Assembly: GCA_947624605.1 (NCBI GenBank)
Contig: CANQLA010000002.1
Coordinates: forward strand, 1-37,653
Reading direction: 5' to 3'
DNA length: 37,653 bases
DNA from: Candidatus Gastranaerophilales bacterium
GTDB lineage: Bacteria; Cyanobacteriota; Vampirovibrionia; Gastranaerophilales; Gastranaerophilaceae
The position numbers and the translations under genes were made by a program. The notes beneath the pieces are model-generated. The model was given only the letters and a program-made list of their open reading frames with translations, ran no database searches and was not told where the DNA came from. Shown piece after piece: positions 5,507 through 22,430 of this stretch; position 1 is the first letter of the stretch, and each line of letters opens with the position of its first letter.

Positions 5507-8500
5507 ATGGAATTTAAAAAAGTTGTTGGATTAATGGTTGTCTTACTGGCTGTTTGTTCGGCACCTGATGTATCATTATCACAGGAAGATATAACAACGT
5601 ATAATAATTTAAAATCATTCTTGGAGAAAGAAAGTAATGATACCGGTACAGTTAGTCAGGATATAGAAATGTCGGGACCTATAACTACCCATGTACACAA
5701 TTATATTTTGACATCCAACACGGGAAATACCAGAAGTTTAACAGGTGCAGACAGTATTACCATTGCTGCTGGTGCACAGCTTACCTTATATGGATTAAAT
5801 GTGGAAGGCGGTCTTGCTTTAGCTGGTGATAATTCAAAATTGATTTTGGGTCAGAAAAGCGATAATAGAGATTTCACAATAGGCATAATTTCAGGAAGCG
5901 GAGATGTTACTGTAGATACAGGAGCAGTTATTACTGCTGGTGCAAGCATTGGTGCAAAATCTTTGACTTTGACATCAGGAGAGTTAAAGGGTGAAAGTAC
6001 TGCTGTTACTCTTTCGGATAAAGCTGTTATATCTGCGGGAACGTTTGATGTGAGATCTTTATCTGCAAAAAGCTATGACCAAGACGGAGGTACGGTAAAA
6101 TTATCGAATGATTTAACAGTTACTGATGGTATAGATATAGACGGCGGTACCTTAACGCTTGGTGCTACAAGTAAAGCAGCTGCCAATAATTTTGATATGG
6201 CACAAGGTACTTCGTTAGTTTCTGACGGAGTCAATTCAGTAACGACGACTAATGGCATAAACATATCCGGAACAGCTGAAAGTAAGGCGACTGTTAATGT
6301 TAATGAAAACCATAGCTTGACATTAACTCCGGGTACAACATTGAGCTTGTCAAACGTTAACTCCACTGTGGCTAACGGTGGTACATTAACATTTGATACT
6401 TCAAAAGGCAGTGCAACAGTTAATGACACGAGTATTACCTTAAGCGGTTCGGGTGCATTGAATTTGAAGGGTAATACGACGGTTCAAAACTCTCAAGTTA
6501 CTCTTTCCGGTGAGGATTCAAAATTAAATATAGATTCCACATCAGGGGATGTTACATTTGTAAACGGCTCAAATATTACAAATTCAGGAACAATTGAAGT
6601 TGCGGGCGATAGCAATAATGTTAATTTAAACGGTACAATTAACAGTGACGGAAATACCCAAGGTTCGATACATAAAACAGGTTCAAACACATTAAATCTT
6701 AACGGTAAAGTTAATACTTCGTCTTTACAGATAGAAAACGGTATAACCAATGTTAATGAAGATGTGACGGTAAGTGGTGACGTACAAATTAAGGGAAGCA
6801 AAGGTAAAAACCAAAATGCAACGGTAAATGTTGCACAGGGCAAATCCATAACTGCACAAGGAGCTGTCAGTTTGGGATCGCAAGAAGACTATGAGTATAC
6901 ACATGTTAATTTAAATCAAGATTCAAAATTATCAGGTTCTTCTGTAACAATCAATTCCGAAGTGGATATGACGAAAGCGACAATTGAGGCGACGGCAGCA
7001 GAGGGAAGTGTTACTATAGGCAGAAAGTCAAACATTACGGTAAAAGCGTTAGAAGGACAGGATATTACCATAAGTACAATAAAAGGTGCAATAATCAACA
7101 TACTCGGTGGTTCTGTCATTACTGTTGAAAATGGAGCAAGACTTGTATATGACGGACAGACGGTCAATTCTACGGATGCACATTATGATATAAAAAACGG
7201 AGCTGTTTGGCAGGCAAGTAACGGTGTATATACAAATGCCGATTTTACCGGAAACGGTGCAATTTTAAATAACGAAGGTAATGTTTCTTTTCTTGGCGGG
7301 TCACAAGAAACTCCTATGAGCTTTACGGAAAGTTTTGCATCCGGCAATGGCGGAGCTGTTTATAATGCACAAAGCGGTACAATTGATGTTTATGATAATG
7401 TTTCATTTTCCAAAAACAAATCAAGCGGTACAGGTGGTGCGTTGTATAATGAGGGCAATTTTACGGCACATAATTATACAGAAAGAGGAACGCTTGCAAC
7501 AAATACGATTTTTGATAATAACAAAGCAGGATTTGATAATAACGGAAATGTTTTAAGCGGAGAACATCATGGTGGAGCAATCTATAATGCTCCGACAGGT
7601 AAAGTTCATTTAGGCGACAACTCAGTGTTTACATCTAACGTTGCTACAGGCAATGGCGGCGGAATTTATAATGGAAATGCCGATAATCAAGCGGTAGTTG
7701 TTGGAAACGGTGCAATTTTCAGAGAAAATATTTCTTATGGTAATGGTGGTGCTGTTTATAATAATGCAGGAACGGTTACTATTGGAGAAAATGCCAATTT
7801 TAGTACAAACTCTGCCGGAATTGGTATCAATGGCAGGGCAAATCCCGTTAAAAACAGTGATGGCGGAGCAATTTATAATGCAGGTAATTCAACGGTTGTT
7901 GTCGGCAAAAACGCAGTATTCAATGATAACTTTGCAACACAAAGCGGTGGTGCTATATATAATGAAGGAAAGTTGACTTTTGATGGAAGTTCAACCAGGG
8001 GAACCGATTTTTCGGTTCAATTTACCAGAAATCAGGTAAGCGGCTCAACTTCTGCACAGAAGAAAGGCGGAGCCGTATATAATAAAGGTACAATAGAAAC
8101 GAAGAGTGAAAATGGCGGAACCGTAAACGGTTTTTATAAAGCTTTATTCGGTTCAGCTCAAAGTACTGAATATGGCAACTCGGCACAGCAGGGCGGTGCG
8201 ATATATAATGAAGTAGGACCGGATAATACTCTTGTCATAGAGCAATCCACGTTTGTAAACAACTCGGCGACAACTGCTGGTGGTGCAATATATAATGCTT
8301 CGGGAACCTTAGATATTCATAATGGTTCGGTATTTCAAAAGAACTTATCTATGGAGGGAGAAGGCGGAGCAATCTATAATGCTGCCGGAGCAAATTTAAA
8401 TCTGGTTGAAGGTTTGGTTTTTGGTGGTGTTGATAACGGTAACCAAGCAAACAAAGGTGGTGCTATATATAACGCAGGTCAATTAAATTCAAACGGAACC

Positions 8501-11500
8501 GAACAAAACACGGTCAAGTTTATTGCAAACAGTGCGATTTCGGCAGGTGGTGCATTATATAACGAAACAAGCGGTTTAAATCTTCAATATGTTGATTTTG
8601 AGGGTAACGTTGCAGGTTCTTTATATTCAAACAATTTTGGTCAAGGAGGTGCAATATACAATACGGGTTCTAATGTAAATATCCGTAATGCAAATTTCAG
8701 AGGTAATATTGCACAAGGTCAAAACGGTTCTGACCATGCTGCAGGCGGTGCTATTTATAACGAAGGTGATATTACTTTTGATAATGAGGTTGTTATTTCT
8801 GAAAACAGTGCTACTGATGCTTCAGGTTCAAATCTTGCAAAAGGTGGTGCTATTTATAACAGTAAAAATATTAAATTTAATACAGAAGTTGAATTACAAT
8901 CAAACGTTGCAAACGGTCAAGGCGGAGCCATATTCAATGCCAAAGAAGCGACTTTAAGTTTTGCTGGTGAAGGGAATACTTTAATTGGCGGCAGACTGGA
9001 AGAAATTTGGTCGGGAGTAAATCCGACAAGAGGCAACAATGCCGATAAAGGTGGCGGTATCTATAATGAAGGTTCGCTCAAACTTTCAAAATCCGAAGCT
9101 GAAAATCCTGGCGGAAATTTCTATATTGTCGGCAACAAGGCGACAACTGCCGGCGGCGGTATCTATAATGTTTCAAATGTTGCAGGAGGAGTAATAAATC
9201 CTGAAACTCAAGGACTATATAATACATATTATTATAATAATAGTGTTGTACCTGCTCTTGGTTCGCAAATCGGTTATGGCGGCGGTTTATACAATGAAAA
9301 GAATACTTTAGATGTCAATGACAGCAATTTGATTACAATATCAAATTCATATTTTGAGAACAACAGTGCAGATATCGGTTCTGCAATATACAATACCGGA
9401 AAAATGGCAATTGATAGTTCGGTATTATTCCAAGGTAACAAGGTAGGTAGTGCTATAGGTAACGAGGGTATTTTAACCCTTCCTCTTGCTTTTCTTATTG
9501 ATAATCAAAATCCCAATGCCGGTGCTATATGGAACCAAGGTAATGGTATTGTCAATACTTATGGATTGTATTTATCTAATTTTTCAACTCCGAATACTCA
9601 AATGATATATCCTTCCATGTTAATTTCTGCCGGATATGTTGATGATTCTTTGGGCAGAGCTGCGGTTAGCGGTGCTGCATTACACCTTACTGATGAATCT
9701 CAATTGAATTTAAGTATTACAGGTTTACCACAGGAGTATCAACAAGATTATCCTAATTCGATTAAAGCTGCATTGTTTTCTAATAACATCGGATACAAAG
9801 GCGGTGCATTGTATAAAGATTCTAAGGATAATTTAACTATAGGCAGTCCGATAAACGGTTTACCCGGTAATATAAATATGAAACTTGGTTTAGATGAAAC
9901 TTCGCCTGTTTATCCGTATAACGTGTTGTTTTCAAATAATATTGCATACCAGCGTACAGATTTACCTGAAGATAATACTGCTGATGGCGGTGCTATATAT
10001 AATTCCGGAAAAGATGGTCGTAACAGTTCTATTAACATAAAAAATGATGTTATATTCTTGAGTAATATTGCGACTGGTAAAGGTGGAGCTATTTATAACG
10101 GTGTTGACGGTCAAATAAATTTTGATCCCGGTTTTACTTTAGGTGAATCTTCACAAGGATATTCTAACATTGCCCAAGTCGGTGGCGGTGGTATTGCAAG
10201 CTATGGTCTGTTACAATTTTCTAACGGAAATGACAGAGCTGCTTACTTTACTTATCAAGGCGGTGGTGCTGATATTTCTGATATCAATTTGCATATTTTT
10301 AACGGTGATGGCGGTGCTATTTATCTTGGCGGTTCTGCTGTTGTTAATACCGATGATTTGCAAAATACAATGAATAATTTTGTATTTACTCACAACGAGT
10401 CATTACGAGGCGGTGCTATATTTAATGACAGTTATAATCCTTTAACTATTCAATCTTCTCAATTTTCTTCTAACAGAGGCTATAGAGATGGTGGTGCAAT
10501 TTATACCGGCAGCGGATCTGATACAAATATTATTTTAGATAATTTAAATATATTTACGGGAAATTATTCCGGTAATACAATGCCTTCCATTTCTTCTTCA
10601 GGAAAAGGCGGTGCGATATATAACAGCGGTATTCTAAACATTTCTGTTCCCGAAGGTACTGATGCTCCTATTCCTACTTTTGTCGGCAATAGTGCAATTG
10701 GTGAAGATGGTCGTGGTGGTGCTATTTATAACCAAGGTAACCTGACAGTTCATGGAAATACGGAATTTTACAGAAACTCAGCAGAATATGGCGGTGCGAT
10801 TTTAAATGATGGTGTATTAACTTTAGATATTTCAAATGGTGATATAGTATTCAATCAAAACTATGCTACTGCCGGTTCTGCTATCTATATGCAAGGAGAT
10901 GAAACTTCAGGTTCATCACTTACTATTGACGGCAACAATTTACACTCGGTTACATTTAGTGAAGCGGATCCTCTGACTGGTACTCCTGCTCAGACTATTG
11001 CTTCTGATCCTTCTACTGCATCTGCAATTGCTGTACGTGGCGGTAGAGTTAACTTCTTATCCGATGCAAGCGGTTATCATGGTTCTTATTATCAAACAGG
11101 TGGTATTGTTACTACTGCTAACAAATTCCTTGATGTTTCCGATGCTCCTATCAAAGCTGTAACTGATGGTACTTTTATTTTTGAAAATGGTGCACAACTT
11201 GTTTCGGATGACTTAACAATTTCAAACAACGAATTAACTTCTAAAGCTACTGTTATCTTTAATAAAAACGATAAATCAAAATTATCTGACTTGAGTGCTT
11301 TATATGACAGTGCTTCTACTAATAATTATTTCTTATATGGAAGTGATGAAAACGGTTATCATAAAGTCATTTTAAGGGCTGCTGATGTTGAAATCAATGA
11401 TGATGCATTAATTGCTCAAGATGCTACTATTGGAAATGCAAGAAACAGTTACTCCGTAAGAAATTTGAAATTAAGTAACGGTGCTACAATCGGAAAAAAT

Positions 11501-14179
11501 ATTACAGTTGTCGGCGGTTCTCAATTATCTGAAGAAGGTGCTACTCTTACTCTTGCAGAAGGTGTGTTGGGATCTGAACAGGCAGGTGTTTACTTAAAAG
11601 ACTACAATGCAAATCTCAAGTTTGAAAATTCAAGAACGCCTTTGGTTATGGGCGGTAGTTTGAAAAATGACGGTCCAACTTACAATTCTTCAATTTCAAA
11701 ATCAGGTGACGGACTTGTTCTCGTTACTGGTGATGCTTCCGCTTTTAACGGTAATTATTCTCAATCAGCAGGTATTGTTGAGTTTGCTTCCGGTTCAAAA
11801 TTCTTCGGTGATGGAACATCTTTCGTAAAAAGCGATGGTTCACCTTCTATTACCGGTGGTAAGCTTCAAATTGACGACGGAACTATCTTTACCGGTCATT
11901 CTTATTTGAAACTCGGAAGTGGTGGCGGATTTTCTACTTCTGTTAAATCTAATGTAGATCTTACCGGCGATAATGTCCTTTTGTCGATTGGTGAACCAAA
12001 TCTGACTGTTGAATTTGATCCTAATTCTTTATTGGAGGTTACTAATAATTCTTCTGTTAATGCTCAAAAAGATCAAATTTTTATCGGTAACGAAAATCTT
12101 CAGGTTAATTCAGTTGTTTTAGGCGGTTCTACAAATGTCGGTTCAGTTGATGTTACTGTCAATCCTAACACTACATTCGTGTTGCAAAATGACAGGGCCG
12201 CTGCAGATCCTGCTCAAGTTGGTTTGGGCGGAGTTTTAGGTTTGGGTTCTAATGTAAAATTCCACGATGCCGCAGGTAATTCCGTAGTACCCAATATCCT
12301 TTTAAAAGATAATACTCAACTTAGATTTACTAATGATGATGATGCTAAACAAACTTTGAATATCGTTTCCGATAATGCTCAAGGTTGGGCGGATTCAAAT
12401 GGTGACATCGTTAAAGAAAATAAAGGTAAGGTCGTAATTGATGGTAATTATGATAATTTCCACGGTTCTTTAATCCTCAAAAACGGAGAAATCGCTACTA
12501 ACGGTAAACTCTTTAATTCGGATGTCAAGTTCGATTTATCTCAATTGAGTGACGGTGCTGTTGCTTCTGTTAACAACATTATTAATTCTAACGATTTATT
12601 CATCGTTGGCAACGTCGGTGAACCTAATTCTTCCAAAGTTTTCAACCTTTCCGTTAACAACAACAGAGGAAACATTGAATTTAGACAAGATGCAAATTCA
12701 CCTTATAATAATGTATACTTATACAATAATTCAGTCGCTAATTTCAGTTCTGCCGGTTCAGTTAATATGAATGATTTAACTATTAAAGATTCTACCGTTA
12801 ACTTATTGGCAGGTAATATGAATGTATTCGGCAATATGTCAATGGGTTCAAATTATAATATGATTAATAATCAAATTAATACCTTGAATATTGCAAATAA
12901 TCTGACACTGACTGGAAATAGTAATTTCGCTATTGATATCAATCCAATTTTCTATCAAAGCGATAAAGTTATTATTAACGGCAACGTTCAATCCGATTCA
13001 TCCACCCCTCGTGCTTTGAACATTTCTGATTGGAAGTTGATGTCTGATCCTGTTTCTCAAGCTTCTGTTTATCAGGTCTTTGATGTTAAAGGCTCCGTAA
13101 ATAATGTCGTATTTACTACTACAAAAAATACATTATTTACTCCAATTGCCAATTATATGTTTAATTCCTTGGGTAACGGTTCTTATATGTTATATCGTAC
13201 CGGCTATACACCGGCTGCTATGGCTGTACCTGTTGCAATGCAGGTTGGCGGCTACTTAAATCAACTCGCAAGCTATGATATGGCTTTTGGAAACCTTGAT
13301 ACCGTCTTGAATTTACCTCTTCTCGGTTACTATAACCGCTATGCTAATTCTGATGACGAACAAATGGTTTATTCTCCAATTTTTATACCTGAATTGGATA
13401 AGGGATTGTGGTTTAGACCTTATGGTAACTTTGAAAAAGTTAGCCTCCATGATGGTCCTAAAGTAAATAACCAATCTTATGGTGCTTTCGTTGGCGGTGA
13501 TACTCCTTTAACTGAACTCGGTAAGGGCTTCCAAGGTACTTTATCTGCTTATGCCGGTTATACAGGCTCTCACCAATCATTTGACGGTATTTCTAATTAC
13601 CAAAACGGCGGAACTCTTGGAGTCACCGGTGCTGTTTATAAAGGAGGCTTCTTCAGCGGGTTGACCGTTAACGTCAATGCTTCCGGAAATGACTCTTCAA
13701 CTCCATACGGAAATAATGATTTCTTTATGTTAGGTTTGGGTGTCGCTTCTAAAACAGGCTATAATTGGGAACTTGCCAGAGGTAAATTCGTCATTCAGCC
13801 CAGTTGGTTAATGTCTTATTCTTACATTAATGCTTTTGACCCGGGTAAGCTCGCAGGTATCTATAACATCGATGCTGACGGTTTACATGGTATCCAAATT
13901 TCTCCTCAAATTAAATTTATTGCTAATCTCCCTTATGGTTGGCAACCTTATGCACTCTTTAATTTCCGTTGGAATTTGGCTGATGAAACTCACGTTACAA
14001 TTAACTCCATTGATATCCCTGAAATTTCTGTTAAACCTTATCTTGAATATGGTATCGGTGTCCAAAAACGTTGGGGTGACAGATTTACTGGTTACGGTCA
14101 ATTCCTTGGCAGGGGTGTCGGAAGAACCGGTGTCGGTCTCAACTTTGGCTTTAGATGGTCTATCGGCAGCGGCAGATAA
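5507..14179 (+). CDS. Giant autotransporter with chlamydial Pmp-like GGAIYN repeats
   Basis: A 2,890-residue type Va secreted surface protein. Residues 1-25 are a signal peptide (VVGLMVVLLAVCSAP core). Residues about 30-600 are Ser/Thr/Asn-rich beta-helix sequence. Residues about 612-1795 hold about 25 strict GG[A/G][I/V/L][Y/F]N motifs plus eight or so degenerate ones, often with an FxxN just before, which is the pairing that defines chlamydial polymorphic membrane protein (Pmp) repeats. Residues about 1800-2600 are further passenger beta-helix. Residues about 2600-2890 form the translocating beta-barrel (WFRPYGNF near 2634), ending FGFRWSIGSGR, so the terminal aromatic lies six residues from the end. 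No protease or lipase motif was seen. The passenger is probably an adhesin or surface coat. It has its own promoter and a strong terminator. Third-position usage drifts along the gene from mixed to T/C-rich. Confidence 0.93.
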   Translation: MEFKKVVGLMVVLLAVCSAPDVSLSQEDITTYNNLKSFLEKESNDTGTVSQDIEMSGPITTHVHNYILTSNTGNTRSLTGADSITIAAGAQLTLYGLNVEGGLALAGDNSKLILGQKSDNRDFTIGIISGSGDVTVDTGAVITAGASIGAKSLTLTSGELKGESTAVTLSDKAVISAGTFDVRSLSAKSYDQDGGTVKLSNDLTVTDGIDIDGGTLTLGATSKAAANNFDMAQGTSLVSDGVNSVTTTNGINISGTAESKATVNVNENHSLTLTPGTTLSLSNVNSTVANGGTLTFDTSKGSATVNDTSITLSGSGALNLKGNTTVQNSQVTLSGEDSKLNIDSTSGDVTFVNGSNITNSGTIEVAGDSNNVNLNGTINSDGNTQGSIHKTGSNTLNLNGKVNTSSLQIENGITNVNEDVTVSGDVQIKGSKGKNQNATVNVAQGKSITAQGAVSLGSQEDYEYTHVNLNQDSKLSGSSVTINSEVDMTKATIEATAAEGSVTIGRKSNITVKALEGQDITISTIKGAIINILGGSVITVENGARLVYDGQTVNSTDAHYDIKNGAVWQASNGVYTNADFTGNGAILNNEGNVSFLGGSQETPMSFTESFASGNGGAVYNAQSGTIDVYDNVSFSKNKSSGTGGALYNEGNFTAHNYTERGTLATNTIFDNNKAGFDNNGNVLSGEHHGGAIYNAPTGKVHLGDNSVFTSNVATGNGGGIYNGNADNQAVVVGNGAIFRENISYGNGGAVYNNAGTVTIGENANFSTNSAGIGINGRANPVKNSDGGAIYNAGNSTVVVGKNAVFNDNFATQSGGAIYNEGKLTFDGSSTRGTDFSVQFTRNQVSGSTSAQKKGGAVYNKGTIETKSENGGTVNGFYKALFGSAQSTEYGNSAQQGGAIYNEVGPDNTLVIEQSTFVNNSATTAGGAIYNASGTLDIHNGSVFQKNLSMEGEGGAIYNAAGANLNLVEGLVFGGVDNGNQANKGGAIYNAGQLNSNGTEQNTVKFIANSAISAGGALYNETSGLNLQYVDFEGNVAGSLYSNNFGQGGAIYNTGSNVNIRNANFRGNIAQGQNGSDHAAGGAIYNEGDITFDNEVVISENSATDASGSNLAKGGAIYNSKNIKFNTEVELQSNVANGQGGAIFNAKEATLSFAGEGNTLIGGRLEEIWSGVNPTRGNNADKGGGIYNEGSLKLSKSEAENPGGNFYIVGNKATTAGGGIYNVSNVAGGVINPETQGLYNTYYYNNSVVPALGSQIGYGGGLYNEKNTLDVNDSNLITISNSYFENNSADIGSAIYNTGKMAIDSSVLFQGNKVGSAIGNEGILTLPLAFLIDNQNPNAGAIWNQGNGIVNTYGLYLSNFSTPNTQMIYPSMLISAGYVDDSLGRAAVSGAALHLTDESQLNLSITGLPQEYQQDYPNSIKAALFSNNIGYKGGALYKDSKDNLTIGSPINGLPGNINMKLGLDETSPVYPYNVLFSNNIAYQRTDLPEDNTADGGAIYNSGKDGRNSSINIKNDVIFLSNIATGKGGAIYNGVDGQINFDPGFTLGESSQGYSNIAQVGGGGIASYGLLQFSNGNDRAAYFTYQGGGADISDINLHIFNGDGGAIYLGGSAVVNTDDLQNTMNNFVFTHNESLRGGAIFNDSYNPLTIQSSQFSSNRGYRDGGAIYTGSGSDTNIILDNLNIFTGNYSGNTMPSISSSGKGGAIYNSGILNISVPEGTDAPIPTFVGNSAIGEDGRGGAIYNQGNLTVHGNTEFYRNSAEYGGAILNDGVLTLDISNGDIVFNQNYATAGSAIYMQGDETSGSSLTIDGNNLHSVTFSEADPLTGTPAQTIASDPSTASAIAVRGGRVNFLSDASGYHGSYYQTGGIVTTANKFLDVSDAPIKAVTDGTFIFENGAQLVSDDLTISNNELTSKATVIFNKNDKSKLSDLSALYDSASTNNYFLYGSDENGYHKVILRAADVEINDDALIAQDATIGNARNSYSVRNLKLSNGATIGKNITVVGGSQLSEEGATLTLAEGVLGSEQAGVYLKDYNANLKFENSRTPLVMGGSLKNDGPTYNSSISKSGDGLVLVTGDASAFNGNYSQSAGIVEFASGSKFFGDGTSFVKSDGSPSITGGKLQIDDGTIFTGHSYLKLGSGGGFSTSVKSNVDLTGDNVLLSIGEPNLTVEFDPNSLLEVTNNSSVNAQKDQIFIGNENLQVNSVVLGGSTNVGSVDVTVNPNTTFVLQNDRAAADPAQVGLGGVLGLGSNVKFHDAAGNSVVPNILLKDNTQLRFTNDDDAKQTLNIVSDNAQGWADSNGDIVKENKGKVVIDGNYDNFHGSLILKNGEIATNGKLFNSDVKFDLSQLSDGAVASVNNIINSNDLFIVGNVGEPNSSKVFNLSVNNNRGNIEFRQDANSPYNNVYLYNNSVANFSSAGSVNMNDLTIKDSTVNLLAGNMNVFGNMSMGSNYNMINNQINTLNIANNLTLTGNSNFAIDINPIFYQSDKVIINGNVQSDSSTPRALNISDWKLMSDPVSQASVYQVFDVKGSVNNVVFTTTKNTLFTPIANYMFNSLGNGSYMLYRTGYTPAAMAVPVAMQVGGYLNQLASYDMAFGNLDTVLNLPLLGYYNRYANSDDEQMVYSPIFIPELDKGLWFRPYGNFEKVSLHDGPKVNNQSYGAFVGGDTPLTELGKGFQGTLSAYAGYTGSHQSFDGISNYQNGGTLGVTGAVYKGGFFSGLTVNVNASGNDSSTPYGNNDFFMLGLGVASKTGYNWELARGKFVIQPSWLMSYSYINAFDPGKLAGIYNIDADGLHGIQISPQIKFIANLPYGWQPYALFNFRWNLADETHVTINSIDIPEISVKPYLEYGIGVQKRWGDRFTGYGQFLGRGVGRTGVGLNFGFRWSIGSGR
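7340..10890 (+). repeat. Pmp-like GGAIYN/FxxN coding repeat array
   Basis: About 33 irregularly spaced units, 20 to 60 codons apart, each centred on GGxhYN and commonly preceded by FxxN. Copies are denser and closer to consensus up to about 9300, then degenerate (GSAIYN, GSAIGN, AGAIWN, GGALYK) and reappear until about 10830. The DNA is diverged between copies, so this is an old protein repeat rather than a recent tandem duplication. Confidence 0.85.
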
Positions 14180-16640: not shown

Positions 16641-17519
16641 TTAACATACGTATGAATTATATAACTCTTCCGTTAAACTGTTGTTTTTCAGCTTCTTTAA
16701 CGCCCTTGATTCCGTTTGTCGAATACATTCCTTTGTCACTCCGTATAAATTCCCTATTTCCTCCAGTGTCTGCTTCTCTTGCTCAAATAACCCAAATCGC
16801 TTCTTTAATACAACTTTTTCTCTGTCCTTCAATGTGTTAAGTAATGCGTTTATATCCTCTGTAAGATTCTTGTATTCAGCATCTCTGTTCGCTGACGACC
16901 TCTTATCTTCTATTACCTCACTTAACGTTAAATCTTTTTGACCATCTCCGTCAAAATCTCCGTCTAACGATAACATCTTATTAAATGCGTTTAAATATGT
17001 GTTTATTTTCTCTGCTTCTATATTCATCCGTTTCGCTACTCTTTCCGTAGAAACACTTCCTTCTCCATCACTTTCCATCTCTGCTTTTACTTTCGTGTAT
17101 TTTGCTATCGTTTCCTGAACATATACAGGAATTCTCATTGCATACGATTGCTCCGATACCGCTTTAAACATGTATTGCTTTATCCACCATGCCGCATATG
17201 TCGCAAATCTGTATCCTAACTTGTAATTGTATTTATCTACTGCCGTAATTAAACCTAAATTACCCTCCTGAATTAAATCCGATATGCTTAATTTCCCGCA
17301 ATGAAGCATCTTCTTCGCTATAGTTACAACCAACTTTAAATTGCTTTTCGTTAATATCTCTTTTGCCTCTTCACTACCCTCTTTCGCTAGTTTCGCAAGT
17401 GCCCTTTCCTCTTCCATTGTTAATGTGCCATACCTTGATATCTTGTTTAAATATGTGTCAAGATTAAATTCCGTCAATTCTTGTGTAATCTCTTTTCTTT
17501 CCACAGCTGCCTTCTTCAT
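16641..17519 (-). CDS. RNA polymerase sigma-70 family factor (short, group-2-like)
   Basis: 292 residues. Region 1.2 is at about 17-50 (DTYLNKISRYGTLTMEEE). Region 2 contains DLIQEGNLGLITAVDKYNY and GYRFATYAAWWIKQ (81-115), covering core binding and -10 recognition. Region 3 is at about 130-185 and region 4 ends with the helix-turn-helix GVTKECIRQTESRALKKLK (260-278). Region 1.1 is absent, as in alternative group-2 sigma factors, although in a reduced genome it could be the main one. The linker between regions 3 and 4 holds DFDGDGQKD (188-196), which has the spacing of a calcium-binding loop. The start has AAGGAG 7 nt upstream. A TATAAT at 17675-17680 on the minus strand could be its -10 and would give a leader of about 150 nt. 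Confidence 0.9.
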   Translation of the reverse strand: MKKAAVERKEITQELTEFNLDTYLNKISRYGTLTMEEERALAKLAKEGSEEAKEILTKSNLKLVVTIAKKMLHCGKLSISDLIQEGNLGLITAVDKYNYKLGYRFATYAAWWIKQYMFKAVSEQSYAMRIPVYVQETIAKYTKVKAEMESDGEGSVSTERVAKRMNIEAEKINTYLNAFNKMLSLDGDFDGDGQKDLTLSEVIEDKRSSANRDAEYKNLTEDINALLNTLKDREKVVLKKRFGLFEQEKQTLEEIGNLYGVTKECIRQTESRALKKLKNNSLTEELYNSYVC

Positions 17520-17949: not shown

Positions 17950-20900
17950 ATGTTAATTTGTGCTTCTTTACGTTCTAATAAATCTGATTTACTTCATAAT
18001 AAGTATATCGAACTTATTAATAATGGTATTCCTCCTGCTCAAATATTGGCTCTTTGCCTCAATGCCCACAAAAAACAAAAATTCCTTAACTTTATTCAAA
18101 ATAATTTAAAAAAATCAACTTTCGGAAAGTTTAATGTTCAAACTTTCTTCGGACTCTGTTATAATGCTCTGTCCGATAATTGGGTCTGCGTTGAAAATTC
18201 TCTCAATTTCGGTGAGTCAGCTTTATTTCCTAATCTTTGCGGACTCGAACTGTCCAGAATGCTCTTATCTAAAAGTATTTCTAAAGGTACTTTTCAAGAT
18301 TATTTTTCTAAAACTAATTTGCTTCATCAGTTATTTAAAAGAATCCAACTTTCTGTTTTAAATTCCTTATCCGATTCTGATTTGGAATTTAAATCTAAAT
18401 TATTAAATGAGTCATTTTTTATTGATGCGAAAAATACTTATGAAAATTTTAAGTATTTGAGTTTAAAATATAGAAGTTTTGATTATTTAAGACAACTTTC
18501 CATTTTACCTTTTATTGTTAAAAATACCGATTATTTTAAAAAAATTAAATACTTATTTGTTGATGATGCTGATGAATTAACATTTGCTGAATTTGATTTC
18601 ATTAAATCTCTTCTTCCGGGTTTGGATAATTATTTTATTGCTTTTGATAATAATGGTGCTTCAAGATGCGGGTATTTAAGTGCTTATAAAACTGCCGTTT
18701 TTCAATTTCCTAAATGGGATACTCCATTGTATTTAAAGGTTTGTGATACCCCTTCTCAAAATGCCGATAAATTGTTTAAAAATATTTTATCCGGTAAAAA
18801 AACTCTTATTTCCAATATGTACACACTTTCTTTTATCAGACGTTTAGATATGCTTGATTGTGCTTTCTCTAAAATTAATGAACTGTTAAAAAACGGTGCC
18901 GATATCTCTGATATTTTAATCGTTACTCCCGTTATCGATGATATGTTAAAATCTTTCTGCTCCGATTTCAATTCCCAATTTATCAGCGGTAGTGAAAAGC
19001 CCAAAGAAACAAGATTCTTAAGAAATATTATTACTTTTCTCAAATTAAATAACCCTGATTGGAATTTAAATATTGATGCTTCCGATTTAAAAGCTTTTTT
19101 CTTTGATTGTTTGCAAATCCCTCAGAAATTCTCTCAAAATTTGGTTTCAAAATGTATTCAAAATCGCTCTTTTGTTGATTTTTCCTTTGATTATGTTTTG
19201 TATCAAAAAAATTATGATAAGTTAAAATTATTTGTTCAAAATTGCACTAAATTATCTCTGTCTTCACAAATTTTAAGCTTTTTTAATTATTTTTCCGATA
19301 ATAAAATTTCCAAAAAAGATTTAAAAAAATTTAATTTTTTCCTTAAAGAAATCAGAAGTTTTGAAACTGCTTTTCCCAATACTGATTCTATTACTCAAAA
19401 AAATATAATTTTACAATTTGAAAACGGAATTATCAGTGAAAATCCTTCTGCACCCGATGAAATAGAACAAAATTCCGTTATTATTTCTACTCCTCAAAAA
19501 GTTATTGATTTTGAAATAAGAAAAAAATATCATTTTTGGCTGGATATATCAAATGATTTATGGACTATGAGAGATGTCGGTGTTCTCTATAATGCTTGGG
19601 TCTTTAATGCCGAATGGAAAAATAAGTCCTTTACTTTTGATGATAATATAAGACTTTCTAACGAAAAAAATGCCAGAGTCTTGAGAAAACTTTTATTGTG
19701 TTGTGAAGAAAAAATTTTTGTATTTTCCTCTCAATATGATTCTTCCGGACACGAAAATTTTGGTATTATGCCTTCTTACTTCATCTGTGATGATAATAAG
19801 TCAGATACTCCAAAAACTAAATGGTCTATAGTTCCAAGAAAAGATCAATTGCCGGTTGTTAATTATAATGGCGGTTTTGCTGCTGTTAATGCCGTACCGG
19901 GTGCAGGTAAAACCACTGTTTTGACTGCTCTTTTAATTCAATTAATTAAAAAAGGTTTTTCTCCTTCTAATATTTTTGTACTTACTTATATGGAATCCGC
20001 TGCTTCTAATATTCGTGAAAAAATTAAACTTGCCATCCCTAATCAAAATGAATTGCCTTATATTTCCACTATTCATGGTTTGGCTTTCCGTATTCTCAAA
20101 GAAAATAATAATTATGCTAAACTCAATTTACCTGATAATATTGATGTAGTTGACGATAACACAAGACAAAAAATTATCAGAGAATGTATTTCCGAATTAG
20201 CTCTTGAGCATGATGATTATGATGATTATGAAAAAGGTATTTCTGTTTTAAAACTTTCTCCCGATAATGTTAAACCTTTAAAATCCTTAAAAAATTCCAA
20301 ATCTTTTTATAAACTTTTTCCTCTCTATGAGAAAAAACTTAAAAAAGAAGGTTTAATAGATTATGACGATATGCTGAGATATGCAGTAAAACTGATTTCT
20401 GATTTTCCGGGTATCGGTGAATATTATGCGGATTTATGTTCTTTTATTATTGAAGATGAGGCTCAAGATTCTACAATTTTACAGCAAAAATTGTTATTAA
20501 AATTGGCATCCGTTCACAAAAATTTGCTTAGAATAGGAGATATCAATCAGGCTATTACTTCTTCTTTCACTGATTGCGATCCGGGATGTTTTAAAAAATT
20601 CTTTGATGAAAATACTCAAATCGTTATGCATTCTTCTCAACGCAGTTGTATACAAATCCAAAAAACGGCAAATCATTTAATTGATTTTTCTAAAGGTAAT
20701 GAATTTTTGAAAGATGCTTTTTTTGACAGCAAACTCTCTGCTACGGATAATAACCCCATTTCTTCCGTTGACCCTCAATTTTCTGTCTTTGAAAACTTGC
20801 ATGACGAAAAACTTTTCGTTTTAAATAAAATAAAAGAAATTTTTTGTTCCGGTACAAAAAAGTCTGTTGCCATACTTTTAAGAAATAATTATCAAATTAA

Positions 20901-21762
20901 TGATTGGGCTGATTTCTTTTCTCAAAACGGTTTAAGTGTTGCTTTAAGATCCGATATTCTTGAACAAAAGGTAATTTTTAAGGTTATTTTTGCTTTTCTT
21001 AAATTTTTGCAAACACCTCTTTCTAATCATTGTGTTTTAAATCTTATGCAAATTTTCAATAATTGTAATATTATTCGTTTTTCAAAAAATGATTATACTT
21101 TTGTTCAAAATTTGAAAATACCTTTTATTCAATCTTATACCGATGATTTTCCAAGTGAAAGCCTGTTAAATTTATGGTGGAACTTACAGTTTAATGATGA
21201 TTTATCATACTGTACTCCTGATATAGCTGCTATAAAAATAGGTTTGAGATTTTTTAATTCCCAAAATGAAAAGTCTAACGTTTATCTTATTTCAACAATT
21301 ATTAAACGTATAATGAATACTTATAGTTCCGATAATTCTGTTTTGGATAAATTGGAACAAATTTCAAAACGCCCTATCGGCTCTTATTTCAAATTCTTTG
21401 AAGACGAAAATATTGAGAAAAATTCTGATGTGAAAATTATGACAATACATAAGTCTAAGGGTGATGAATTTGACGTTGTTTTTATTCCTGAAACAAGTGA
21501 GGAAAACTTTCCTCTTTTAAAAGAAAAGGTTAAGATAAAATCTTATTTTACGGAAAATATAAGAGAACTCAGATTTAATTATAAAAAAAGAAGCGTTGAC
21601 GAAATGAAAAAACAAATTGCTCAAGAAACAATCAGGCTTTTATATGTCGGATTTACAAGAGCAAAAACCGATTTGTTTGTTACTTGTGCCGATAAAAATA
21701 AATTTGGCAAAAAAATTATGCCGTCTATTATTTTTAATGAATTCGGAGATAATATTTTATGA
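17950..21762 (+). CDS. Tandem UvrD/AddB-like helicase: decayed N-half fused to an active SF1 half
   Basis: 1,270 residues. The C-half is an intact superfamily 1A helicase: Walker A VPGAGKTT (649-656), TIHGLAFRIL, Walker B IIEDEAQDS (Asp836, Glu837), LLRIGDINQAITSSF, TIHKSKGDEFDVVF and LLYVGFTRAK (about 1231-1240). The N-half (1 to about 620) keeps a helicase-like plan without catalytic residues: GIPPAQILALCLNAHKK resembles the segment after Walker A but no GKT precedes it, LFVDDADELT (Asp205-Glu209) sits where motif II should be, and NARVLRKLLLCCEEKIFVFS where motif VI should be. That is how AddB and RecC derive from helicases. The stop overlaps the nuclease gene by ATGA. Likely role: double-strand-end processing for recombination. 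Assignment of the N-half is by motif order only. Confidence 0.82.
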   Translation: MLICASLRSNKSDLLHNKYIELINNGIPPAQILALCLNAHKKQKFLNFIQNNLKKSTFGKFNVQTFFGLCYNALSDNWVCVENSLNFGESALFPNLCGLELSRMLLSKSISKGTFQDYFSKTNLLHQLFKRIQLSVLNSLSDSDLEFKSKLLNESFFIDAKNTYENFKYLSLKYRSFDYLRQLSILPFIVKNTDYFKKIKYLFVDDADELTFAEFDFIKSLLPGLDNYFIAFDNNGASRCGYLSAYKTAVFQFPKWDTPLYLKVCDTPSQNADKLFKNILSGKKTLISNMYTLSFIRRLDMLDCAFSKINELLKNGADISDILIVTPVIDDMLKSFCSDFNSQFISGSEKPKETRFLRNIITFLKLNNPDWNLNIDASDLKAFFFDCLQIPQKFSQNLVSKCIQNRSFVDFSFDYVLYQKNYDKLKLFVQNCTKLSLSSQILSFFNYFSDNKISKKDLKKFNFFLKEIRSFETAFPNTDSITQKNIILQFENGIISENPSAPDEIEQNSVIISTPQKVIDFEIRKKYHFWLDISNDLWTMRDVGVLYNAWVFNAEWKNKSFTFDDNIRLSNEKNARVLRKLLLCCEEKIFVFSSQYDSSGHENFGIMPSYFICDDNKSDTPKTKWSIVPRKDQLPVVNYNGGFAAVNAVPGAGKTTVLTALLIQLIKKGFSPSNIFVLTYMESAASNIREKIKLAIPNQNELPYISTIHGLAFRILKENNNYAKLNLPDNIDVVDDNTRQKIIRECISELALEHDDYDDYEKGISVLKLSPDNVKPLKSLKNSKSFYKLFPLYEKKLKKEGLIDYDDMLRYAVKLISDFPGIGEYYADLCSFIIEDEAQDSTILQQKLLLKLASVHKNLLRIGDINQAITSSFTDCDPGCFKKFFDENTQIVMHSSQRSCIQIQKTANHLIDFSKGNEFLKDAFFDSKLSATDNNPISSVDPQFSVFENLHDEKLFVLNKIKEIFCSGTKKSVAILLRNNYQINDWADFFSQNGLSVALRSDILEQKVIFKVIFAFLKFLQTPLSNHCVLNLMQIFNNCNIIRFSKNDYTFVQNLKIPFIQSYTDDFPSESLLNLWWNLQFNDDLSYCTPDIAAIKIGLRFFNSQNEKSNVYLISTIIKRIMNTYSSDNSVLDKLEQISKRPIGSYFKFFEDENIEKNSDVKIMTIHKSKGDEFDVVFIPETSEENFPLLKEKVKIKSYFTENIRELRFNYKKRSVDEMKKQIAQETIRLLYVGFTRAKTDLFVTCADKNKFGKKIMPSIIFNEFGDNIL

Positions 21763-22430
21763 AAATATATACTGCCGGTATGTTAAAAACATTTTCACAA
21801 TGTCCTGAAAAATATAACCTTATATATAATGAACATTTGGAGGCTCCTTCTGATGATAATTCTGCTGTAATCGGTAAAAAAATTCATTCGCTGATTTATT
21901 TTTTTTTAAAAGGTGCAAATGTAAATAAAATGATTTTATCATTAGATAATCCTCAAAATGAAAATTTAAAAACTTTATGGAAAAATTTCCTCTCTTTCGG
22001 AATAAGAAATGTATCTGAATGTGAATTGACTTTTAATGTTATTTTGAATGAAAATATCCTGATGACCGGCAGAGCTGATGCACTCAGAGAAAAAAAAGAT
22101 ACAATCGAAATTTTGGATTGGAAAACGGGTTCTTCGGATAATATAAATCCTGAACGGGAATATCAAACAATCGTTTATTTATATTGTGTTTATAAATTGT
22201 TGTTTCTGCAACACAGGATTTATAATCCTGAAAATTTAAGCATGACTTATTATTTCCTTAAAAATAAAACATATAAAACTGTCAAATTCTCAAAAGAAAA
22301 ATACAAAATTTATGAAATATATTTGAACGAATTAACTGAAAAAATTATGTTATATCAATATAATACATCGAATTTTTCAGATAAATGCGTTAATTGTTCT
22401 TTTAAAATTATTTGTCAAAATACTTACTAA
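21759..22430 (+). CDS. Free-standing PD-(D/E)XK nuclease with AddB-type Fe-S cysteines
   Basis: 223 residues starting four bases inside the helicase gene. RecB/AddB-family nuclease residues are visible: His43, Asp107 in GRADAL, Asp120 and Lys122 in LDWKTG, then Gln136 in EYQTIVYLY. Four cysteines are placed as in the Fe-S nuclease domain of AddB: Cys15 in FSQCPEKY near the start and Cys210, Cys213 and Cys219 (C-x2-C-x5-C) at the very end. In known AddB this domain is the C-terminal part of the inactive-helicase subunit; here it is a separate polypeptide. With the protein before it, it should form a helicase-nuclease. Cas4 has a similar core, but no cas genes or CRISPR are nearby. Confidence 0.85.
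   Translation: MKIYTAGMLKTFSQCPEKYNLIYNEHLEAPSDDNSAVIGKKIHSLIYFFLKGANVNKMILSLDNPQNENLKTLWKNFLSFGIRNVSECELTFNVILNENILMTGRADALREKKDTIEILDWKTGSSDNINPEREYQTIVYLYCVYKLLFLQHRIYNPENLSMTYYFLKNKTYKTVKFSKEKYKIYEIYLNELTEKIMLYQYNTSNFSDKCVNCSFKIICQNTY

Follow-up and report, generated by a model that had tools for sequence, protein, structure and literature searches.

The window analyzed here, a stretch of 37,653 nucleotides, is contig C2 of a Candidatus Gastranaerophilales genome (G000, 85% complete). In what follows, G denotes a genome searched, L a locus and f a family of the genomes searched. Two ORFs, of 1270 and 223 amino acids, share an ATGA at their junction, and the features assigned to them are collected in Table 1. 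The first ORF encodes two helicase-like halves on one chain, which we call the N-module and the C-module, and the second encodes a nuclease. The neighboring genes are housekeeping genes. Immediately upstream of the helicase gene (16641-17519) is a divergent RpoD-like sigma factor of 292 residues, whose top NCBIfam match, MzaA, falls well under the cut-off. Further upstream, an ORF of 2890 amino acids (5507-14179) contains repeats of the Chlamydia polymorphic-membrane-protein type (Pfam Chlam_PMP, 111 bits) and encodes a large surface protein, with no tandem array at the DNA level.

Table 1. Features of the helicase-nuclease locus, with positions in the window.
Feature	Position	Strand	Basis
Fused double-helicase gene, 1270 aa	17950..21762	+	ORF, Pfam, order-wide search
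N-module, residues 1-631, SF1A helicase-like, apparently ATPase-dead	17950..19842	+	Pfam, AF2, Foldseek, phylum search, hhalign
Degenerate P-loop of N-module (ASLRSNKS; GPLKSGKT in other members)	17962..17985	+	Motif alignments
Motif II remnant of N-module (LFVDDADEL)	18553..18579	+	Motif alignments
Motif VI position of N-module (ARVLRKLLLCCEEKIFVFSS), arginine finger lost	19669..19734	+	Motif alignments
Low-confidence linker between the modules, residues 616-625	19795..19824	+	AF2; near gene break of L173/L189
C-module, residues 632-1270, complete UvrD-like SF1A helicase, own clade	19843..21759	+	Pfam, motifs, tree
Walker A of active helicase (AVNAVPGAGKTT region)	19891..19917	+	Motif alignments
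Motif II of active helicase (IEDEAQDS)	20449..20472	+	Motif alignments
Motif VI of active helicase (RLLYVGFTRAKT)	21634..21669	+	Motif alignments
ATGA stop/start overlap, helicase gene/nuclease gene	21759..21762	+	ORF coordinates, locus comparison
Stand-alone RecB-family PD-(D/E)XK nuclease, 223 aa	21759..22430	+	Pfam, AF2, fold match
Catalytic core D107...D120-x-K122 (with H43, E89)	22077..22124	+	Invariant in 34 sequences
C210-x2-C213-x5-C219, with C15 (21801-21803) a putative 4Fe-4S site	22386..22415	+	Conservation

A first-pass annotation, made from the letters of this DNA, had described a complete SF1 helicase in the C-half of the 1270-residue protein, and both Pfam and the motifs agree. 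The UvrD N-terminal domain covers residues 632-870 (162.7 bits) and UvrD_C residues 1151-1247, with a complete set of motifs I (AVPGAGKTT), II (EDEAQDS), III (GDINQAI), V and VI (RLLYVGFTRAK). The chain stops after UvrD_C, at residue 1270, and carries no PDDEXK domain, meaning that the fused nuclease of AddA type is absent. As shown by a helicase tree, the fused C-halves and the stand-alone cyanobacterial helicases form one clade (SH-aLRT 99) that lies outside the PcrA, AddA, RecB and UvrD-Cas4-like groups.

The N-half, submitted alone, matched the Pfam UvrD-helicase N-terminal domain over residues 2-235 (35.9 bits, E 9e-9). Since a profile search against PDB sequences returned Rep alone, and weakly, we compared folds. 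An AF2 model from a 30-sequence alignment reached pLDDT 87.7 and pTM 0.85, with only residues 616-625 poorly ordered. Foldseek searches of the PDB with this model returned UvrD, PcrA, Rep, AddB, AdnB, AddA, RecB and RecC, where UvrD (2is1) had the best E-value (4e-18) and TMq was up to 0.67 for AdnB, 0.66 for AddA, 0.63 for AddB (4ceh_B) and 0.55 for RecC. The comparison with AddB and RecC, suggested earlier as a check, yielded an SF1A helicase fold that matches both. The N-half had also been described as an inactive helicase without Walker A. The inactivity stands, but the P-loop of the window is degenerate as opposed to deleted: its position reads MLICASLRSNKSDLL, compared with GPLKSGKT or GxxxSGKT in other family members. 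Several relatives and most homologues from cyanobacteria retain an intact loop (GPLKSGKT, GTSRSGKT). In all N-modules compared, motif III lacks its glutamine and motif VI its arginine finger, and from these losses the N-module ATPase looks dead family-wide, though the P-loop often survives. Two residues, D532 and W538, do not vary among the members compared, and R239 is almost invariant. By the AF2 and Foldseek results and by the motifs, a dead helicase module of SF1A fold is present, as in AddAB. A chain of AddB type, with dead helicase and nuclease together, is absent, as the N-module has no nuclease and the nuclease is a separate ORF.

The second ORF had been described as a nuclease-only gene with four cysteines that overlaps the helicase gene by ATGA, which the coordinates, a PDDEXK_1 match (69.8 bits) and the conserved residues bear out. 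Compared by fold, its AF2 model (pLDDT 94.5) comes closest to the AdnA nuclease domain of mycobacteria (TMq 0.74), followed by ACE1 and Cas4. In 34 homologues, G39, H43, E89, D107, D120, K122, Q136 and Y140 are invariant; conservation of C15, C210, C213 and C219 is 90% or higher, and two members have lost all four. At L020 and L022 (G007 and G006) the nuclease lacks the four cysteines and the C-terminal tail and keeps the catalytic residues. A nuclease tree recovered one clade with the stand-alone cyanobacterial nucleases (support 96/100), outside the AddA, AddB, RecB and UvrD-Cas4 groups; this tree contained no Adn sequences, and the likeness to AdnA rests on the fold match. Identity with ACE1 was also considered and rejected, as a phmmer comparison of a cyanobacterial member of the nuclease family with ACE1 gave no sequence match.

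The order to which the window belongs falls in the Cyanobacteriota/Melainabacteria group, and genome searches were confined to that phylum, with some of the genomes incomplete. When the gene pair was sought across relatives, as the first-pass annotation had advised, the fusion was found in 36 of the 39 genomes searched in the order (some as contig-end fragments), so it is not an assembly artefact. The nuclease was found in 34 of the 39, once as a weak match. At 80 loci from other assemblies, the fusion was present in 79, with the nuclease immediately downstream in 63 of those. The nuclease usually lies on a different contig from the fusion in families f2, f3, f5 and f6, and in the near-complete genomes G016 and G020 the fusion is present but no nuclease could be detected. 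Within the class, families f9, f14 and f15 have fusions of 1373-1482 amino acids, and the nuclease is adjacent in f9 and f15.

This distribution bears on whether the pair could be a defence module against phages or plasmids, one that breaks down linear DNA on entry. Phage DNA is also destroyed by RecBCD and AddAB, and in PADLOC the helicase and nuclease match the GajB, RTasHel and Cas4 models, although as distant homologues only. However, the near-universal, vertically congruent distribution and the housekeeping neighbors speak against such a role, and we found neither a defence partner that matches the pair nor viral relatives of the locus. We therefore consider a defence module very improbable, and the phage origin raised in the first-pass annotation is unsupported as far as tested.

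Searches of the wider phylum recovered the same parts in other arrangements. In oxygenic-type cyanobacteria the N-module is a stand-alone gene of ~650-780 amino acids, which the fused N-half matches by hhalign at 2E-112, the C-helicase is a gene of ~780 and the nuclease a gene of 256-300 amino acids, and all three are dispersed. The stand-alone N protein gave sub-threshold matches only in Pfam and matched no NCBIfam family at E 0.001. G155 (L173) and G173 (L189) have three adjacent genes in the order N-C-nuclease, with the N and C genes overlapping by ATGA. In G197 and G213, where the N-module is missing, matches to the C-helicase are weak and PcrA-sized and those to the nuclease are weak. Canonical AddB and AddA are present in family f8 (TIGR02773, 146 bits; TIGR02785, 364 bits), where no fusion was detected, and in f9, f14 and f15 some genomes have both the fusion and a separate AddB/AddA-like pair. 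Such pairs occur beside the fused system in G045, G040, G062, G086 and G106 (L149, L151, L154, L156 and L157), and some AddB-like members in sister families match no NCBIfam model.

The first-pass annotation had read the locus as a regrouped AddAB whose nuclease was split from AddB. A true reshuffling, where the dead AddB helicase was fused to the AddA helicase, the AddA nuclease was lost and the AddB Fe-S nuclease was freed, would explain the identical domain set. In hhalign the N-module can also be aligned with AddB over its whole length (99.6%, E 7E-23), and the profile of the N-half has a long match to a canonical AddB over residues 7-458 (19 bits). However, its hhalign closeness to PcrA, the C-helicases and UvrD-Cas4 is about equal to that with AddB, and we rejected AddB-specific descent. 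The trees place the C-helicase and the nuclease with the stand-alone cyanobacterial genes and outside AddA, AddB and RecB, and the AddB/AddA-like pair coexists with the fusion in f9, f14 and f15, all of which makes reshuffling improbable. Because of these separate clades and this coexistence, the fused system is, as judged by phylogeny, a paralogous lineage separate from AddAB. The direction of the nuclease-splitting picture is also wrong: as deeper lineages carry the parts as three individual genes, the derived event at the locus is, on this comparison, the fusion of two neighboring, ATGA-overlapping helicase genes.

We then consider which end-processing systems accompany the fusion. RecC (PF04257) has no match in the 85% complete source genome, and a RecB-type helicase-nuclease fusion was not found there either, with the stand-alone nuclease and one UvrD-Cas4-like protein being its only PDDEXK_1 proteins. 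The latter (L159, C45:9357-12428) is a UvrD-PDDEXK protein of 1023 amino acids with a C-terminal Cys cluster; proteins of this kind are patchy in the window's family, and their helicase and nuclease each form a clade of their own. The earlier expectation that a separate addAB or recBCD would be missing holds in G000 to the extent of its completeness, but the absence of addA/addB does not extend to some sister families, where the AddB/AddA-like pair sits beside the fusion. Of 38 genomes sampled from the window's family, 18 have no PDDEXK_1 match other than the stand-alone nuclease, a pattern that near-complete genomes often show. In f12, PDDEXK_1 matches are missing altogether from 9 of the 11 genomes sampled (G043, G049 and G060 among them; 86-98% complete), and for this reason these genomes apparently have no known RecBCD, AddAB or AdnAB, and no N-module.

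RecC occurs in 28 of the 244 genomes of the phylum sample. The small genomes of f41 account for 23 of these and none of the 23 shows an N-module, and among other genomes of the phylum with an N-module match RecC is absent in 98 of 103. The complementarity rests essentially on this one family, f41. The pattern agrees with the reported distribution of recBCD, which is found in Prochlorococcus and marine Synechococcus, with model cyanobacteria lacking parts of RecBCD (PMC5101192). S. elongatus has been stated to encode AddAB (PMC10269773), and the genes meant may be parts of the three-part system described here.

Given the RecC complementarity and a nuclease that is often the only PDDEXK_1 match in genomes of the window's family, we propose a role in DNA-end resection. 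The gene pair probably encodes a DNA-end-processing helicase-nuclease of the AddAB/AdnAB/RecBCD type with one motor and one nuclease, which by descent is a separate three-part cyanobacterial system. The earlier proposal that AddAB-like parts are present with a single nuclease in place of two is upheld in that an inactive and an active SF1A module share one chain and the nuclease is separate. Several observations count against this reading, including the dispersed genes of oxygenic cyanobacteria, the unlinked nuclease in several families, the failure to detect it in G016 and G020 and the loss of the cysteine site in two members. The nuclease pattern would also suit a general repair or replication-restart helicase with a UvrD/Rep-like role, to which the dead module and the nuclease are accessories and which resects no ends. 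PcrA, UvrD and Rep models give the best scores for the C-module, and an AddAB-like pair is also present in some families. We regard this alternative as unlikely, however, as PcrA is present as a separate gene in genomes carrying the fusion, the combination of dead module, live motor and RecB-family nuclease is the hallmark of AddAB, AdnAB and RecBCD, and there is complementarity with RecC in the phylum.

For an end-processing helicase-nuclease, we hypothesize that the products of both genes would assemble at a double-strand end, where the C-motor would pull one strand and split the duplex, with 3′-to-5′ movement expected from its UvrD-like family. The dead N-module could lie across the strand path as a pin, channel or scanner, like the dead helicase domains of AddB and RecC, which have SF1 topology, lack most or all motifs and act as Chi scanners (PMC4824097). 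The cysteine cluster would pin the nuclease to the DNA end, and the nuclease would cut the strand or strands that emerge, leaving RecA with a 3′ tail; the single nuclease might act on both strands or on only one. A search for a Chi-like octamer in 1.19 Mb of the relative G058, run with no positive control, turned up none, with a best z of 5.9, a ratio below 2 and no strand bias. By descent, the three-part system runs through much of the Cyanobacteriota/Melainabacteria group, as an adjacent trio in two deep lineages, as dispersed genes in oxygenic-type genomes and as a fusion in Gastranaerophilales and some sister families. In families that also carry the AddB/AddA-like pair, this coexistence suggests that the function may differ from that of AddAB.

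According to a prediction by Rocha et al. (PMC1193525), bacteria have unknown presynaptic recombination systems. The three genes described here are conserved as a set, have a distribution complementary to that of RecC and include a dead-helicase part that matches no NCBIfam family, which makes them a concrete candidate for one of these, with relevance to natural transformation, to genome editing and to the repair of double-strand breaks in cyanobacteria. We give about even chances to the broader claim that a dead SF1A module, a live SF1A module and a separate Fe-S nuclease constitute, as a three-part complex, a fourth architecture of end-processing machine in bacteria beside RecBCD, AddAB and AdnAB, ancestral to the Cyanobacteriota/Melainabacteria group, with the window holding its fused form and the unrecognized RecBCD equivalent of most oxygenic cyanobacteria as its wider identity. 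No description of this cyanobacteriota-wide architecture was found in the literature searched, which comprised open-licence papers only. Such a machine would show that a single motor with one nuclease bound to it non-covalently is enough, and the dispersed genes, operon and fusion would provide a natural series for the assembly of such machines.

In AddAB, AddB is a dead SF1 helicase and an Fe-S nuclease in one chain, and AddA is an active SF1A helicase with a C-terminal nuclease. The present system resembles AddAB of the Bacillus subtilis type in having a single motor of the SF1A type, a dead SF1A helicase-like domain that can be aligned to AddB over its full length, and a PD-(D/E)XK nuclease with a putative Fe-S site. 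It differs in that both helicases are on one chain, the nuclease is a separate protein, there is one nuclease as opposed to two, and the C-helicase and nuclease fall outside the AddA and AddB clades. The UvrD-Cas4 fusion and the UvrD/Cas4-like operon (PMC5704561) also combine a UvrD-like helicase with a Cas4-like PDDEXK_1 nuclease, but they have no dead helicase module and their clades are separate from the present ones. Cas4 and ACE1, an Argonaute-associated Cas4 family protein, share the PD-(D/E)XK fold and a Cys cluster, whereas no CRISPR or Argonaute context was seen at this locus and ACE1 has no sequence match. Mycobacterial AdnAB likewise has two UvrD-like modules and a RecB-family nuclease, and AdnA provides the best fold match of the nuclease and AdnB the highest TM-scores of the N-module. 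However, AdnAB, reported in Actinobacteria only (PMC6452273), pairs one helicase with one nuclease in each subunit, for a total of two nucleases (PMC13309787), in contrast to the two helicases on one chain and the single nuclease found here. RecBCD differs in that its nuclease is fused to the motor and in its RecC family (PF04257), which is absent from G000, but it too is a machine with a single active nuclease and a dead SF1 helicase domain, that of RecC. A single nuclease also has a precedent, since RecBCD makes do with one nuclease domain less than AddAB (PMC6452273).
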